36,542 bases of DNA, from IMG/VR virus record IMGVR_UViG_3300032245_000750, positions 1 through 36,542 of that record, one strand, 5' to 3'. The translations under genes and the position numbers were made by a program. The notes beneath the pieces are model-generated. The model saw only the letters and a list, made by a program, of their open reading frames with translations, did no database searches and was not told where the DNA came from. This stretch comes from a virus. Of the stretch, positions 18,990-30,118 are shown one piece after another; within the stretch, counting starts at the first letter, position 1, and every line of letters begins with the position of its first letter.

Positions 18990-19279
18990 TAGTCGTTGTA
19001 TTCTTCGATTGCTCGCTCAATAATTAAGTTATAAAACTCATTGTCAATGTCTCTTGGTTCGATAGCATAATCTTCTTCAGATGAAATGCTTTTAATGTCG
19101 ATTGTTTCTGGGTCAATCTCTCTGGAGTAATGTTTAAAAACATAGAACTCACCACCCCTGTCTCCGTTGTATGAGTCGTCAACGGAGCGTTCGTCATAGT
19201 CAACTCCTACGACATAGCATACTCCTTTGTAATCTATGGTTAACTCCATATCTGGTGATTTATATTTTTTAGAACTCAT
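18989..19279 (-). CDS. Unknown acidic early protein
   Basis: With the ATG at 19279 the product has 96 residues. The open frame extends further upstream, but that part lies over the initiator gene in another frame and looks non-coding, so I use the internal ATG, which gives an 11-base overlap with the upstream gene. The protein is very acidic (DYDERSVDDSYNGDRGGEFYVF, SISSEEDYAIEPRDIDNEF). Acidic small phage proteins may be DNA mimics or partner inhibitors, but nothing specific is seen. Confidence 0.5.
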   Translation of the reverse strand: MSSKKYKSPDMELTIDYKGVCYVVGVDYDERSVDDSYNGDRGGEFYVFKHYSREIDPETIDIKSISSEEDYAIEPRDIDNEFYNLIIERAIEEYND

Positions 19280-19949
19280 TGTGGTCTTGTGCTGATAATG
19301 GTTGTTTTTGGTTTTGGTTGGAAAAATTTCTTGGCTCGAATAGTCCTGTCCACCCGTTTGTAATACTATGGTTGATGCTGTCAATAGATTTCTTTTCTCC
19401 CCATAAAATAAATTGCTTCCATTGAAGTTTAATAGAAGTTGGCTTAAGTTGCTTCTTAATCTCCTTACGATACTCAATCCATTTAAACCAAGCGTCTTCA
19501 AATGACTTTGATGAAAATGGTAAAGAACCTACGATTGGAGCAGAGTTCCTTGTATCTTTATCTTCTTTATTATCTTCTTTATTATATGTAGGCAATTTTT
19601 TGCCACCCCCCGTGGCAATTTTTTGCCTAGGGGTAGGCAATTTTTTGCCACCCCCCTGCACGACTAAAGCGTCCAGAAGGGCTACCTTTTCGACAGTTCT
19701 GATAATTCGTCTTCCGTCCTGCTCTAAACGAACTATCAGTTTATGGTCGTCTAACTCCTTCAAAAGATTGCGTATTTGACGCTCTGCTAGCCCCAAGGAG
19801 CGAGCCAAGTAGCCGTTTGAGGCATAACATCCGTCCTCATTATCAAGTGAGTCTATAATGCCATACACGAACTTGGCGGTAGGAGAAAGCGTTTCGATTT
19901 GGAAAACCTCTTTAGGTATCCATACGCCTGTAAAATTAGGATTGTTCAT
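19269..19949 (-). CDS. Replication initiator-like winged-helix protein
   Basis: The product has 226 residues. Residues about 20-75 form a winged helix: LSPTAKFVYGIIDSL, YASNGYLARSLGLAERQIRNLLKEL described by its ends, then the wing LIVRLEQDGRRIIRTV. This is the N-terminal domain pattern of phage replisome organisers. A middle linker contains GGGKKLPT twice, encoded by an iteron array. The C-terminal part has AWFKWIEYRKEIKKQ and LQWKQFILWG, resembling DnaA/DnaD-like helical tails. The DnaC-like loader lies downstream in the same operon. The stop overlaps the next start and the start overlaps the exonuclease stop by four bases. I infer that it binds the iterons inside its own gene, as lambda O does. 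Confidence 0.7.
   Translation of the reverse strand: MNNPNFTGVWIPKEVFQIETLSPTAKFVYGIIDSLDNEDGCYASNGYLARSLGLAERQIRNLLKELDDHKLIVRLEQDGRRIIRTVEKVALLDALVVQGGGKKLPTPRQKIATGGGKKLPTYNKEDNKEDKDTRNSAPIVGSLPFSSKSFEDAWFKWIEYRKEIKKQLKPTSIKLQWKQFILWGEKKSIDSINHSITNGWTGLFEPRNFSNQNQKQPLSAQDHNEF
19551..19590. promoter_or_regulatory. AT-rich segment beside the iterons, possible DNA-unwinding element
   Basis: About 40 bases made almost entirely of A and T, with three TTATCTT/TTCTTTATTA-type pyrimidine runs on the plus strand, lie directly beside the iteron cluster. In iteron origins the melted region is a similar AT-rich stretch next to the binding sites. The purpose is inferred; the segment is also coding for NKEDNKED in the initiator-like protein. 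Confidence 0.5.
19591..19649. repeat. Three iterons GGCAATTTTTTGCC, putative replication origin
   Basis: The 14-base unit GGCAATTTTTTGCC occurs at 19591-19604, 19614-19627 and 19636-19649, all in the same orientation and exact, with start-to-start spacing of 23 and 22 bases, close to two helical turns. The first and third copies share a longer 24-base identity including a following run of C. Each unit is nearly palindromic (GGCAA/TTGCC). They lie inside the replication initiator-like gene, beside an AT-rich segment, as lambda iterons lie inside gene O. Confidence 0.75.
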
Positions 19950-21038: not shown

Positions 21039-21227
21039 TTATTTGTTTCCTAAAATGTATCCAGCAATACCAGCGTCAAGAGTCTTTCGACCCCCATTGT
21101 GCGTATTGACGGCTTGAATGATTTTCTTCTCAACATACCTGTCAAGTGCTTCGAGGAACTTCTTGCTTGTTCTCTTTCCGTTCACCTTAACAAGTTTCTT
21201 AACTGCAGTGTGTTTAATGTAGTGCAT
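21039..21227 (-). CDS. Small basic protein with histone-fold-like pattern
   Basis: With the ATG at 21227 the product has 62 residues; an in-frame GTG at 21248 is possible but less likely. The order helix (IKHTAVKKLVKV), loop with R-T-S (GKRTSKK), long helix (FLEALDRYVEKKIIQAV), loop with GRKT, short helix (LDAGIAGYI) follows the histone fold: archaeal and bacterial histones have a similar R-(V/T)-S at the start of the long helix and a similar RKT or RST in the second loop. The long helix is about five residues shorter than in archaeal histones and closer to bacterial ones. It stands between element C and the exonuclease unit and is probably DNA-binding. The assignment is by motif pattern only. 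Confidence 0.55.
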   Translation of the reverse strand: MHYIKHTAVKKLVKVNGKRTSKKFLEALDRYVEKKIIQAVNTHNGGRKTLDAGIAGYILGNK

Positions 21228-21258
21228 AGTGGTTGATTGCAACTTCACAATAACAGAT

Positions 21259-25656: not shown

Positions 25657-25680
25657 TCCGCTAACCACCCACCCAAAATC

Positions 25681-25704
25681 GCCCTGCCCTTGCAGGGCTT
25701 TTTT
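25681..25704 (+). terminator. Rho-independent terminator 3 of cassette array
   Basis: Stem GCCCTGC/GCAGGGC with loop CCTT, then TTTTTT and GTGCCCG. The stem is identical to that of terminator 4. Confidence 0.9.
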
Positions 25705-25761
25705 GTGCCCGCTTTTTTTCGCTTGCGTTCACTTCGCCTGTTTTCTAAAAATCACCTCGTC

Positions 25762-26076: not shown

Positions 26077-26102
26077 TCCTTTTTTAAACTATCAACGAAA
26101 TC

Positions 26103-26126
26103 GCCCTGCCAACGCAGGGCTTTTTT
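26103..26126 (+). terminator. Rho-independent terminator 4 of cassette array
   Basis: Stem GCCCTGC/GCAGGGC with loop CAAC, then TTTTTT and GTGCCT. It is the last of four related terminators. Confidence 0.9.
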
Positions 26127-26420
26127 GTGCCTACCCGCTTCCCGCCCAGCCCGAATACCAGCACCTGCCTTTTTTGGGCTTCCCTTGCCACCACAGCCCG
26201 CTTTGTCGTCCAGCGATACCGCCTATACCCACCCCACCCCCAAACCCCCTCCAGCGAGCCAGCGAGACACCTCTATCGCAGTCCACCAGCAAGTCACACC
26301 TACCTGTTTCGGCAATCAAAACCCCAGCAAATCTAATTTAGCACCTATCAGCCACCAATCAGCCAGCAATCATGCACCAATCAGGCAACCCGTTCCATGA
26401 CCTTCAATCCCTCCCCAAAA
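26127..26420. other. C-rich stretch without a convincing gene
   Basis: About 290 bases with C far exceeding G on the plus strand (for example CCCACCCCACCCCCAAACCC). Open frames exist in several phases, but none has a plausible start or protein composition. CACCAATCAG is repeated near 26354 and 26375. I see no RNA gene in it. Confidence 0.5.
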
Positions 26421-26421
26421 A

Positions 26422-26478
26422 GAACAATCGTTCACTACTGAACACCTGTTCACTTACTGAACTTTAGTTCACCTGAAC
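26422..26478. repeat. Alternating inverted half-site array GAAC/GTTCA/TGAAC
   Basis: Half-sites alternate in direction: GAAC 26422, GTTCA 26430, TGAAC 26439, GTTCA 26448, TGAAC 26458, GTTCA 26467, TGAAC 26474. Spacers are four, four, four, five, four and two bases. Three palindromes GTTCA-n-TGAAC result. The first two half-sites also spell GAAC-AATC-GTTC, which resembles the LexA box of Gram-positive bacteria. It is probably a multi-site operator. Confidence 0.65.
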
Positions 26479-26900
26479 AGGGGGGAGGGGGTAAGACTCA
26501 AAAAAAACACCAGAAACTTGGACTGGTTACCTCAGAAACTTTTTTTATCCCAAAAGGGTTGAAGCGACTGAGCCTAATACAGCGTAAGCGTTATTAGCGA
26601 AGAAGCGTCTGGGGGTTATTAGGGGGTGTTGAGCAGGTGATGTCAAGCAGTATTTTTGTTATAGTGCTAAAGAGCCGATTTTCTATGAAATATAATTGCT
26701 GAATCTGATAGATAGTAATTCTAATGAAAGCCATTAGGATTTCTAATAGGATAGAACTAAGGTGTTTGTGTGCTTGACAGTGTTCTTGGAAACCCCCTTA
26801 TGTATCCCCTTTCTTTGACCCCCTTAATCCCCCTAAATAATTAGGGGGACAGGATTATAAAATACAGTTGACAAACTTATTTCATTGATTACAGGTTAAT
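26479..26900. other. G-rich and AT-rich regulatory region without a gene
   Basis: Directly after the half-site array the plus strand becomes G-rich (GGGGGGAGGGGG, GGGGGTTATTAGGGGG). CAGAAACTT is repeated near 26510 and 26533. TTGACA boxes occur near 26774 and 26869, pointing rightward to the tRNA and late operon. CTAATG/CATTAG forms a small hairpin near 26722-26739. No protein gene is seen. Confidence 0.5.
26828..26849. promoter_or_regulatory. Perfect 9-bp hairpin without T run
   Basis: TCCCCCTAA at 26828-26836 pairs with TTAGGGGGA at 26841-26849 over loop ATAA. No T run follows on either strand, so it is not a classical terminator. It lies just upstream of a TTGACA box. Confidence 0.55.
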
Positions 26901-27034: not shown

Positions 27035-27106
27035 CGGTCTGTAGTTCAACGGATAGAACATTCGCCTTCTAAGCGAATAATCTTGGTTCGATTCCAAGCA
27101 GACCGA
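27035..27106 (+). tRNA. tRNA-Arg (anticodon UCU)
   Basis: All arms form: acceptor CGGTCTG/CAGACCG (7 pairs), D arm GTTC/GAAC with loop AACGGATA, anticodon arm TTCGC/GCGAA with loop CTTCTAA giving anticodon TCT, four-base variable region, and T arm CTTGG/CCAAG with loop TTCGATT. It reads AGA, a codon used often in these phage genes. The discriminator is A and no CCA is encoded, so CCA must be added by the host. It is followed 63 bases later by the first late gene. Confidence 0.9.
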
Positions 27107-27168: not shown

Positions 27169-27576
27169 ATGAAAGAAAAAGACCTTTCAATCGCAATCGG
27201 GCTATCAAGAGATATGCTCAAGGAAATCAGAGACACTTATGAACAGGGTGTTCATTGGAATAAAATCGAGTCTCGCAAGCCAGAGCAACTCTGGGAGGTC
27301 GAGTGGACACCAGAAGGAATTACGCTCCTAAAGAAGAACATCGGTTTCAAAGAACCAGAGGTCATTAAATCACCAGAAAAAAAGAACGGCAAGGTAGTAA
27401 GAAAATATAACAACCCTCGTGTAATCGGGGTAATCCTAGATGACCAACCAGACAAAGAACATAATGTTCTATGCCGTGAATCTAATAAATTCCTCATCAA
27501 TATGCCTGTTGTCGTACGATGGGACGGAGCACGATGGTGTATCGTGCGACATCCTAGATTCGTAGGCAAGTACTAA
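27169..27576 (+). CDS. Unknown first late-region protein
   Basis: The product has 135 residues. The N-terminal part (LSIAIGLSRDMLKEIRDTYEQGVHW) looks like a HTH-type DNA-binding segment, followed by a charged linker SPEKKNGKVVRK and a beta-rich C-terminus with VRWDGARWCIVRHPRFVGKY. I associate similar C-terminal sequences with conserved phage proteins of unknown function. A TTGACA box near 27133 precedes it. It is probably a regulator at the head of the late operon. Confidence 0.5.
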   Translation: MKEKDLSIAIGLSRDMLKEIRDTYEQGVHWNKIESRKPEQLWEVEWTPEGITLLKKNIGFKEPEVIKSPEKKNGKVVRKYNNPRVIGVILDDQPDKEHNVLCRESNKFLINMPVVVRWDGARWCIVRHPRFVGKY

Positions 27577-28510: not shown

Positions 28511-30118
28511 ATGTCTTTCAATCTAACGCCACATCCTATTTTAATTACTCCTAGTCGAGAGGATATTAAGCGTTTAGTTGACAAAGTAGGTACAGAAAAA
28601 GTAACAGAAATTTTAAATCTTCGTGAGGATAAAATCCTTGCTGAAAAGTTAGACCCATATCGCCACGGCTTTGATTTACCACATTGGGCTGAAGCAGATG
28701 AACTACTTAAAGAAAACAATGAACTTCTTGTTCTTGGTGGTAATCGTGCAGGTAAAACAGAGTGGGCTGCCAAGCGGGCTGTACAAACATTAATTAATTT
28801 AAAGGATGCTCGTGTGTGGTGTTTGCATACTACAAACCAGTCGTCTATTCAGATGCAACAGAATGTTATTTATAAGTATCTTCCGTCTGAGTATAAAGAC
28901 CTTAAAAAGAATAAGGTTCAGAATGTCCAGTACACACAAAAGAACGGATTCTCTGACAATACATTTATTCTCCCAAACAAATCACAATGCTTTTTTATGA
29001 ACTACGCTCAAAAGCGTGATGTCATTGAAGGTGGTGAGGTTGATTTAATTTGGTGCGATGAGTTAGTTCCGCTAGATTGGATTGAGACGCTCAGGTATCG
29101 TATTGTTACAAGAGGAGGAAAGTTAATTGTTACATTTACTCCTATTACTGGATATAGTTCTGTTGTAAAAGAGTACATTTCTGGTTCTAAGATTATAGAA
29201 ACAAAACCAGCCACAATGCTTCCAGATACAATTAATGTTAATGGAATTTCTCGTGGTCATATGCCTTTTAAAGCCAAGTCTTATTCAAGACCTGCGGCTG
29301 TTATGTGGTTTCATAGTCAATTAAATCCATATAACCCATTTGAGCAGTTAAAGAAAACGCTCTCTGGGAAAAAGCCTTATGAAATCAAAATCCGTGCCTA
29401 TGGGTGGGCTGATAATATATCTGGCTCACAGTTCCCAAGATTCACAGAAGAAATTAATGTTGTTAAAGAAGAGCAAGTTCCAAAAGAGGGAACAAATTAT
29501 ATGGTTGTTGACCCTGCTGGAGCGAGAAATTGGTTTATGCTCTGGATGCGAGTATCTAAAGATGGAGATATGTTCATTTATAGAGAGTTTCCAGATTCAA
29601 ATGAGGGTGAGTGGGCTTTGCCATCAGCAGACACAGATGGAAAGGCTGGCATTGCACAGCGTAATGGTGCTGGACGCTCTCTTGCAGATTATAAAGATTT
29701 AATTCTTAGCCTAGAAGATGGAGAGGAAATATTTGAACGCTACATTGACCCTAGGGCTGGTGGCTCAAAAACAGTAACCGATGATGGAGGTGTAACATTA
29801 ATTGATATGCTTGATGACGGAGAAAATCCTATTCATTTTACTCCTGCGGCTGGTATTCGTATTGAGCAAGGTGTTGCACTTATTAACGATGGATTCAGTT
29901 ACGATATGAACCAAGAGTTAAGTCCGTTAAACAAGCCAAAACTTTATATCAGCGAAAATTGCAGAAATTTAATCTATTGCGTTAAAGAATGGACTGGGCA
30001 GGACGGAGAAAAAGGTGCAACAAAAGACCCTATTGACTGCCTTCGTTATCTTATGGTTATGAATCCAGAGTATAACGATAGAACTAGTTTACAAGGATGG
30101 GGTGGAGGCTCTTACTAA
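28511..30118 (+). CDS. terL: Terminase large subunit
   Basis: The product has 535 residues. VLGGNRAGKTEWAAK near 73-87 is the Walker A motif of the packaging ATPase, VDLIWCDE near 176-183 the Walker B with catalytic glutamate. The C-terminal nuclease domain begins with YMVVDPAGARNW near residue 329 (the first metal-binding Asp) and ends with the DPIDCLRYLM helix. It cuts concatemers and pumps DNA into the prohead through the portal encoded next. The gene begins two bases after the endolysin stop, and its own stop overlaps the following ATG. Confidence 0.95.
   Translation: MSFNLTPHPILITPSREDIKRLVDKVGTEKVTEILNLREDKILAEKLDPYRHGFDLPHWAEADELLKENNELLVLGGNRAGKTEWAAKRAVQTLINLKDARVWCLHTTNQSSIQMQQNVIYKYLPSEYKDLKKNKVQNVQYTQKNGFSDNTFILPNKSQCFFMNYAQKRDVIEGGEVDLIWCDELVPLDWIETLRYRIVTRGGKLIVTFTPITGYSSVVKEYISGSKIIETKPATMLPDTINVNGISRGHMPFKAKSYSRPAAVMWFHSQLNPYNPFEQLKKTLSGKKPYEIKIRAYGWADNISGSQFPRFTEEINVVKEEQVPKEGTNYMVVDPAGARNWFMLWMRVSKDGDMFIYREFPDSNEGEWALPSADTDGKAGIAQRNGAGRSLADYKDLILSLEDGEEIFERYIDPRAGGSKTVTDDGGVTLIDMLDDGENPIHFTPAAGIRIEQGVALINDGFSYDMNQELSPLNKPKLYISENCRNLIYCVKEWTGQDGEKGATKDPIDCLRYLMVMNPEYNDRTSLQGWGGGSY

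Follow-up and report, generated by a model that had tools for sequence, protein, structure and literature searches.

The closest described counterparts of the palindromes analysed here are the operators of TetR-family regulators. RolR of C. glutamicum, a TetR protein, is reported in the excerpt of PMC9210681 to bind TGAAC-N4-GTTCA, and the same excerpt reports occupancy by several dimers for some TetR proteins. The LexA box of Gram-positive bacteria, given as CGAACN4GTTCG in excerpts of PMC9578287 and PMC3091678, has the GAAC-N4-GTTC core and the dimer dyad of the present locus, but its outer bases are C and G where those of the array are T and A. The iterons of lambda-type O genes are also alike in being tandem palindromes at a spacing of about 20 bp, and the O-like genes of other phages hold iteron-like arrays with the same GAAC-N4-GTTC core.

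The locus lies in a virus record that spans 36.5 kb (36,542 nucleotides, the whole stretch of DNA analysed, referred to as the window). The original prediction had described seven alternating GAAC/GTTC half-sites over 57 bases, and all seven were confirmed. The half-sites start at 26422, 26430, 26440, 26448, 26459, 26467 and 26475, alternate strictly in orientation, and make up an array (26422-26478) of three perfect palindromes and one unpaired half-site:

26422 to 26433, no strand assigned: palindrome 1, AGAAC-AATC-GTTCA (core GAAC-AATC-GTTC)
26439 to 26452, no strand assigned: palindrome 2, TGAAC-ACCT-GTTCA
26458 to 26471, no strand assigned: palindrome 3, TGAAC-TTTA-GTTCA
26475 to 26478, plus strand: seventh half-site, GAAC, unpaired, which also forms GTTC-ACCT-GAAC with 26467-26470

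The dyad centres are at 26427.5, 26445.5 and 26464.5, that is, 18 and 19 bp apart. The almost constant four-base spacers of the prediction were recovered when the conserved fifth base was counted, in which case the loops are four bases long with CTAC, CTTAC and CC in between, but not for the 4-bp cores, which are separated by gaps of 4, 6, 4, 7, 4 and 4. The palindromes have the TetR-type operator format as described in the excerpt of PMC9210681, a dyad of about 15 bp with arms of about 5 bp. Exact GAAC-N4-GTTC occurs three times in the 36.5-kb window, always within the array (21 matches with at most one mismatch, these three included), while dinucleotide shuffles of the window contained 0.43 exact copies per window. 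None of 200 such shuffles had two exact copies inside 60 bp, and an analytic estimate placed the probability of three within 60 bp at about 1e-7. The chance origin of the array is negligible because of these shuffles and this estimate.

The minus strand encodes the genes between 12664 and 22140, among them a set for replication (Erf-like, DnaC-like, O-like and exonuclease), and those between 22365 and 26076 are on the plus strand in a block that closes at a terminator-like hairpin. The noncoding stretch of about 0.9 kb that runs from this hairpin to the tRNA/terminase operon contains the array, which is located about 560 bp upstream of the tRNA. The surrounding features are as follows:

26103 to 26126, plus strand: intrinsic-terminator-like hairpin (26103-26120) and T-run, end of the upstream gene block
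26480 to 26491, plus strand: G-tract GGGGGGAGGGGG, directly 3' of the array
27035 to 27106, plus strand: tRNA-Arg (TCT), first feature downstream of the array
27169 to 27576, plus strand: first protein gene downstream of the array, putative small terminase subunit (TerS) by position only, with no family match
28511 to 30118, plus strand: terminase large subunit (TerL)

The order after the array is tRNA-Arg, putative small terminase subunit, endolysin-like protein, terminase large subunit, a 731-aa protein and the major head protein. The 731-aa protein occupies the portal position, and some of its weak phage relatives carry a portal annotation. The proteins that the window has in common with isolate phages are distant only. 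Judging from synteny with a relative (G005), about 3.7 kb seems to be missing between the two ends of the window. No good sigma-70 promoter overlaps the array; two promoter-like sites were found and 2.6 were expected. G-tracts, which are runs of G often interrupted by one A or C, are conserved in the noncoding region of the relatives with or without the array. Imperfect 11-bp direct repeats of the CACCAATCAGC type are present just 5' of the array at 26342-26385. A 34-bp repeat, 91% alike, is found at 25676-25709 and 26098-26131 and contains an intrinsic-terminator-like hairpin with TTTTTTGTGCC at its end; relatives have hairpins of a similar kind. A cos site or terminus in the array region was considered since contigs often begin there, but fixed ends in this noncoding region seemed unlikely because several contigs, including the window, run through it.

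A TerL search yielded 293 related places; 80 were retained as loci. The clade of the window comprises four TerL rows. Two of its members with identical TerL rows (L022 and L023) retain the array of three palindromes at the corresponding location and with unchanged geometry, and it is absent from L021, which is equally close by TerL. Thus, the conservation in close relatives on which the original prediction had staked the array was found in L022 and L023 and, as reduced versions, in many other relatives, but it did not extend to L021. When the array was compared with that of L023, the closest array-bearing relative, all 29 half-site bases were identical, while 9 of the 12 bases in the loops and 1 of the 9 in the spacers differed (half-sites versus loops, Fisher p 6e-7). 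When all 5-N4-5 palindromes in the intergenic DNA of the 80 loci were ranked without bias, TGAAC came second, with 26 matches in 18 loci and a mean of 0.36 per arm, the first being a CCCCA hairpin. Exact TGAAC-N4-GTTCA was present in 13 of 26 TerL-selected records; the reversed-pattern control was present in none of these 26 and in one of all 33 records. In the majority of relatives with sites there are one or two copies, which lie in this noncoding stretch, where an early gene ends or in another intergenic region. A tree was built from 39 TerL rows, namely those of the window, of L018 and of 37 loci out of the 80, the loci being picked for having a site or a G-tract preceded by at least some 300 bp. 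On this tree the site label requires seven changes, at least four of them on well supported branches, compared to 12.7 when labels were shuffled. Therefore, conservation, recurrence and the change counts lead to the conclusion, drawn from sequence comparison, that the sites are under selection yet come and go among relatives.

The location of the array ahead of the terminase genes is not restricted to this family. In two phages, G026 (L017) and L012, no homologue could be detected for any protein of the window. The first has TGAAC sites at five positions that precede RusA-TerS-TerL by about 110-290 bp, and the second has three sites about 290-420 bp upstream of an operon containing TerL. This arrangement, shared by the window and two unrelated phages, and the adjoining G-tract that is conserved in relatives would be accommodated by a packaging site in which the small terminase subunit binds the array near a pac-type start. 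However, the putative TerS of L021, which is devoid of the array, is nearer to that of the window (83%) than are those of the array-bearing L022 and L023 (79 and 78%), and many relatives retain the putative TerS gene and the G-tract without any site. A packaging role is accordingly an improbable one. A literature search by the spelling of the motif returned titles on LexA, on footprint discovery and on a TetR protein, and no title on phage arrays.

The loops follow the pattern R-N-N-Y in 93% of the 29 distinct sites of the phage family (both strands counted). This pattern is symmetric as DNA, and many of the loop pairs could not form in a hairpin. A symmetric, mostly non-pairing loop suits a protein dimer. 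The idea in the original prediction that several dimers could cover the site is supported by the arm and loop pattern, by the dyad symmetry of the R..Y loop and by the conservation of the geometry, all of which fit three adjacent dimers. The alternative that the array acts as a single-stranded DNA or RNA structure instead of a protein site draws on the folding of the array strand, which is better than that of shuffles (z -4.0), and on CCCTCCCC at 26409, which can pair with the G-tract. However, the arms show no covariation, the letters TGAAC are kept and the R..Y loop ends are mostly not complementary, so that a structural role is barely credible.

Host SOS control had been put forward in the original prediction. 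In that case, host LexA dimers on the three dyads would repress the late region until DNA damage occurs. The dyad length and the GAAC core are shared with the Gram-positive box CGAACN4GTTCG (excerpt of PMC9578287). However, among 51 GAAC-N4-GTTC sites in the window and the 80 TerL loci, the outer bases are T..A in 31 and C..G in one. In addition, when bacterial and archaeal genomes were scanned for tandem TGAAC-N4-GTTCA pairs (at least 118 stretches), neither lexA nor recA was detected near any of the 118 listed tandem pairs by tblastn with E. coli queries only, and genes of the TetR family were common beside the bacterial pairs. Gram-positive LexA boxes are usually single. The SOS proposal was thus not borne out by the outer bases or by the neighbours of the tandem pairs, and we regard LexA as an improbable reader of the array.

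Of 156 candidate ORFs flanking the tandem pairs, 148 were used as Pfam input, from the 102 of the 118 listed loci that had a qualifying ORF. TetR_N was identified in 43 of these 148 proteins, among the matches listed. TetR-family operators, namely RolR REP1 (as given in the excerpt of its source) and the bacterial tandem TGAAC pairs next to TetR genes, have the same arm, loop length and tandem layout as the phage array, which differs in having three sites instead of one or two and in the lack of a TetR gene found in the phage. A cognate TetR gene in the same genome is common, although not obligatory, for TetR operators, and none was present in 25 phage records (TetR_N, 0 of 25). LexA_DNA_bind was likewise found in none of 25 phage records, and HTH_3 (XRE) exceeded the cut-off in none of 33. 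A host TetR-type binder is the simplest choice because of the TetR neighbours in bacteria, the precedent of RolR, the lack of such regulators in these phage records and the occurrence of the motif in two unrelated phages.

The binder could instead be a phage-encoded regulator of an unrecognised family, which we consider very doubtful. One candidate that tracks the sites is the histone-like protein encoded at 21039-21248, with homologues in six site-bearing relatives (G005, G008, G009, G010, G020 and G027) and not in any of the five genomes without sites that were compared. However, no homologue was detected in G003 and G011, which have sites but are partial contigs, or in the unrelated G026 and G032. 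Histone folds are not known to recognise specific palindromes. The protein, encoded on the minus strand, is 69 aa long and has a predicted histone fold (mean pLDDT 74). Its top six Foldseek matches were the bacterial histones HLp and HBb (probability 0.85-1.00, TM 0.65-0.79, E-values 0.13 or worse). It seems too short to include the extra C-terminal domain of the 'phage histones' as they are presented in the excerpt of PMC11390915.

The resemblance to lambda-type iterons raised the option that the palindromes serve as iterons for the phage O-like initiator, in the manner of lambda, or as a second origin. The relevant features are on the other side of the window:

19269 to 19949, minus strand: O-like replication initiator gene
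19591 to 19649, minus strand: in-gene iterons of the O-like gene, GGCAA-AAAA-TTGCC in three copies at spacings of 22 and 23 bp

When viral contigs were searched for three tandem GAAC-N4-GTTC, at least 119 stretches were returned (L285-L400 and L005 among them). Among the matches listed, 45 of 92 distinct triple arrays are inside an ORF of at least 100 aa, often in the middle of the gene; for random 60-mers drawn from these loci the proportion inside ORFs is higher (68%). A set of 46 proteins was scanned, composed of 44 of the 45 array-bearing ORFs (L359, a near copy, was omitted), the window O-like protein and the protein of L115. Replication initiation families were matched, among the matches listed, by 20 (phrog_270), 16 (phrog_678) and 14 (phrog_428) of the 46. 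TGAAC arrays are found inside the O-like initiator genes of L005, which is viral, and L115, a bacterial record. The genes beside the extragenic triple arrays are mixed, with no dominant family (83 flanking ORFs, 46 arrays, among the matches listed). The detrended cumulative GC skew of the window reaches its minimum at 26479, the base immediately after the array, and minima at or near arrays were also observed in G032 (15377), G003 (14425) and G026 (23263). However, the minimum is elsewhere in five relatives with one or two sites (G005, G008, G009, G010 and G020) and 2.4 kb away in G027, and site-less G017 has a similar local skew step near its G-tract. The GC-skew minimum was given little weight because a similar step occurs without sites.

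The array of the window is outside the O gene, about 6.5 kb from it, in relation to the lambda-type origin as defined in the excerpt of PMC7466680, and the gene itself contains different iterons, the three GGCAA-N4-TTGCC followed by an AT-rich stretch. In the O genes of relatives, the iteron arms vary (GGCAA, TGCGG, TGCAA, GGAAG) and the TGAAC sites elsewhere are unchanged. Both the array as the iteron set of the window initiator and the O-like initiator as the array binder were rejected, the former because the O-like gene carries its own iterons and because the arms vary in relatives while TGAAC is constant. The flank of the array is rich in C and G, an A/T stretch being found about 25-70 bp downstream, and the AT tract by the O-gene iterons is clear. 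The O-gene iterons (19591-19649) together with the AT-rich stretch probably constitute the replication origin, and an iteron function for the array is rather unlikely.

We tentatively interpret the array as three tandem operators for an HTH regulator, most probably of the host TetR family, located upstream of the late genes, an interpretation that is quite plausible without reaching the level of the probable. One dimer of the HTH regulator would occupy each TGAAC-N4-GTTCA dyad. The regulator, most probably a TetR-family protein supplied by the host, may, depending on its state, increase or decrease the transcription that enters the late (packaging) genes. Counting against the operator reading, the array is some 560 bp away from the tRNA and is not overlapped by a good sigma-70 promoter, some relatives have sites elsewhere, e.g., at a gene end or in a second intergenic region, and the site label changes at least four times on the TerL tree. 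It is conceivable, if somewhat unlikely, that a phage without its own repressor placed host-TetR operators before its packaging operon so that the late genes obey a host signal, or as a decoy, and that unrelated phages converged on this solution. In the decoy version, replicating phage DNA would titrate the regulator and host genes would be derepressed.

The recurrence of GAAC-N4-GTTC triple arrays in O-like initiator genes offers a simple way to spot candidate origins. It also calls for caution, as identical letters can signify an operator or an iteron. If the sites are read by a TetR-type regulator of the host, late expression in these phages would be coupled to a sensor of the host, and the motif would be of use in linking uncultured phages to their hosts.
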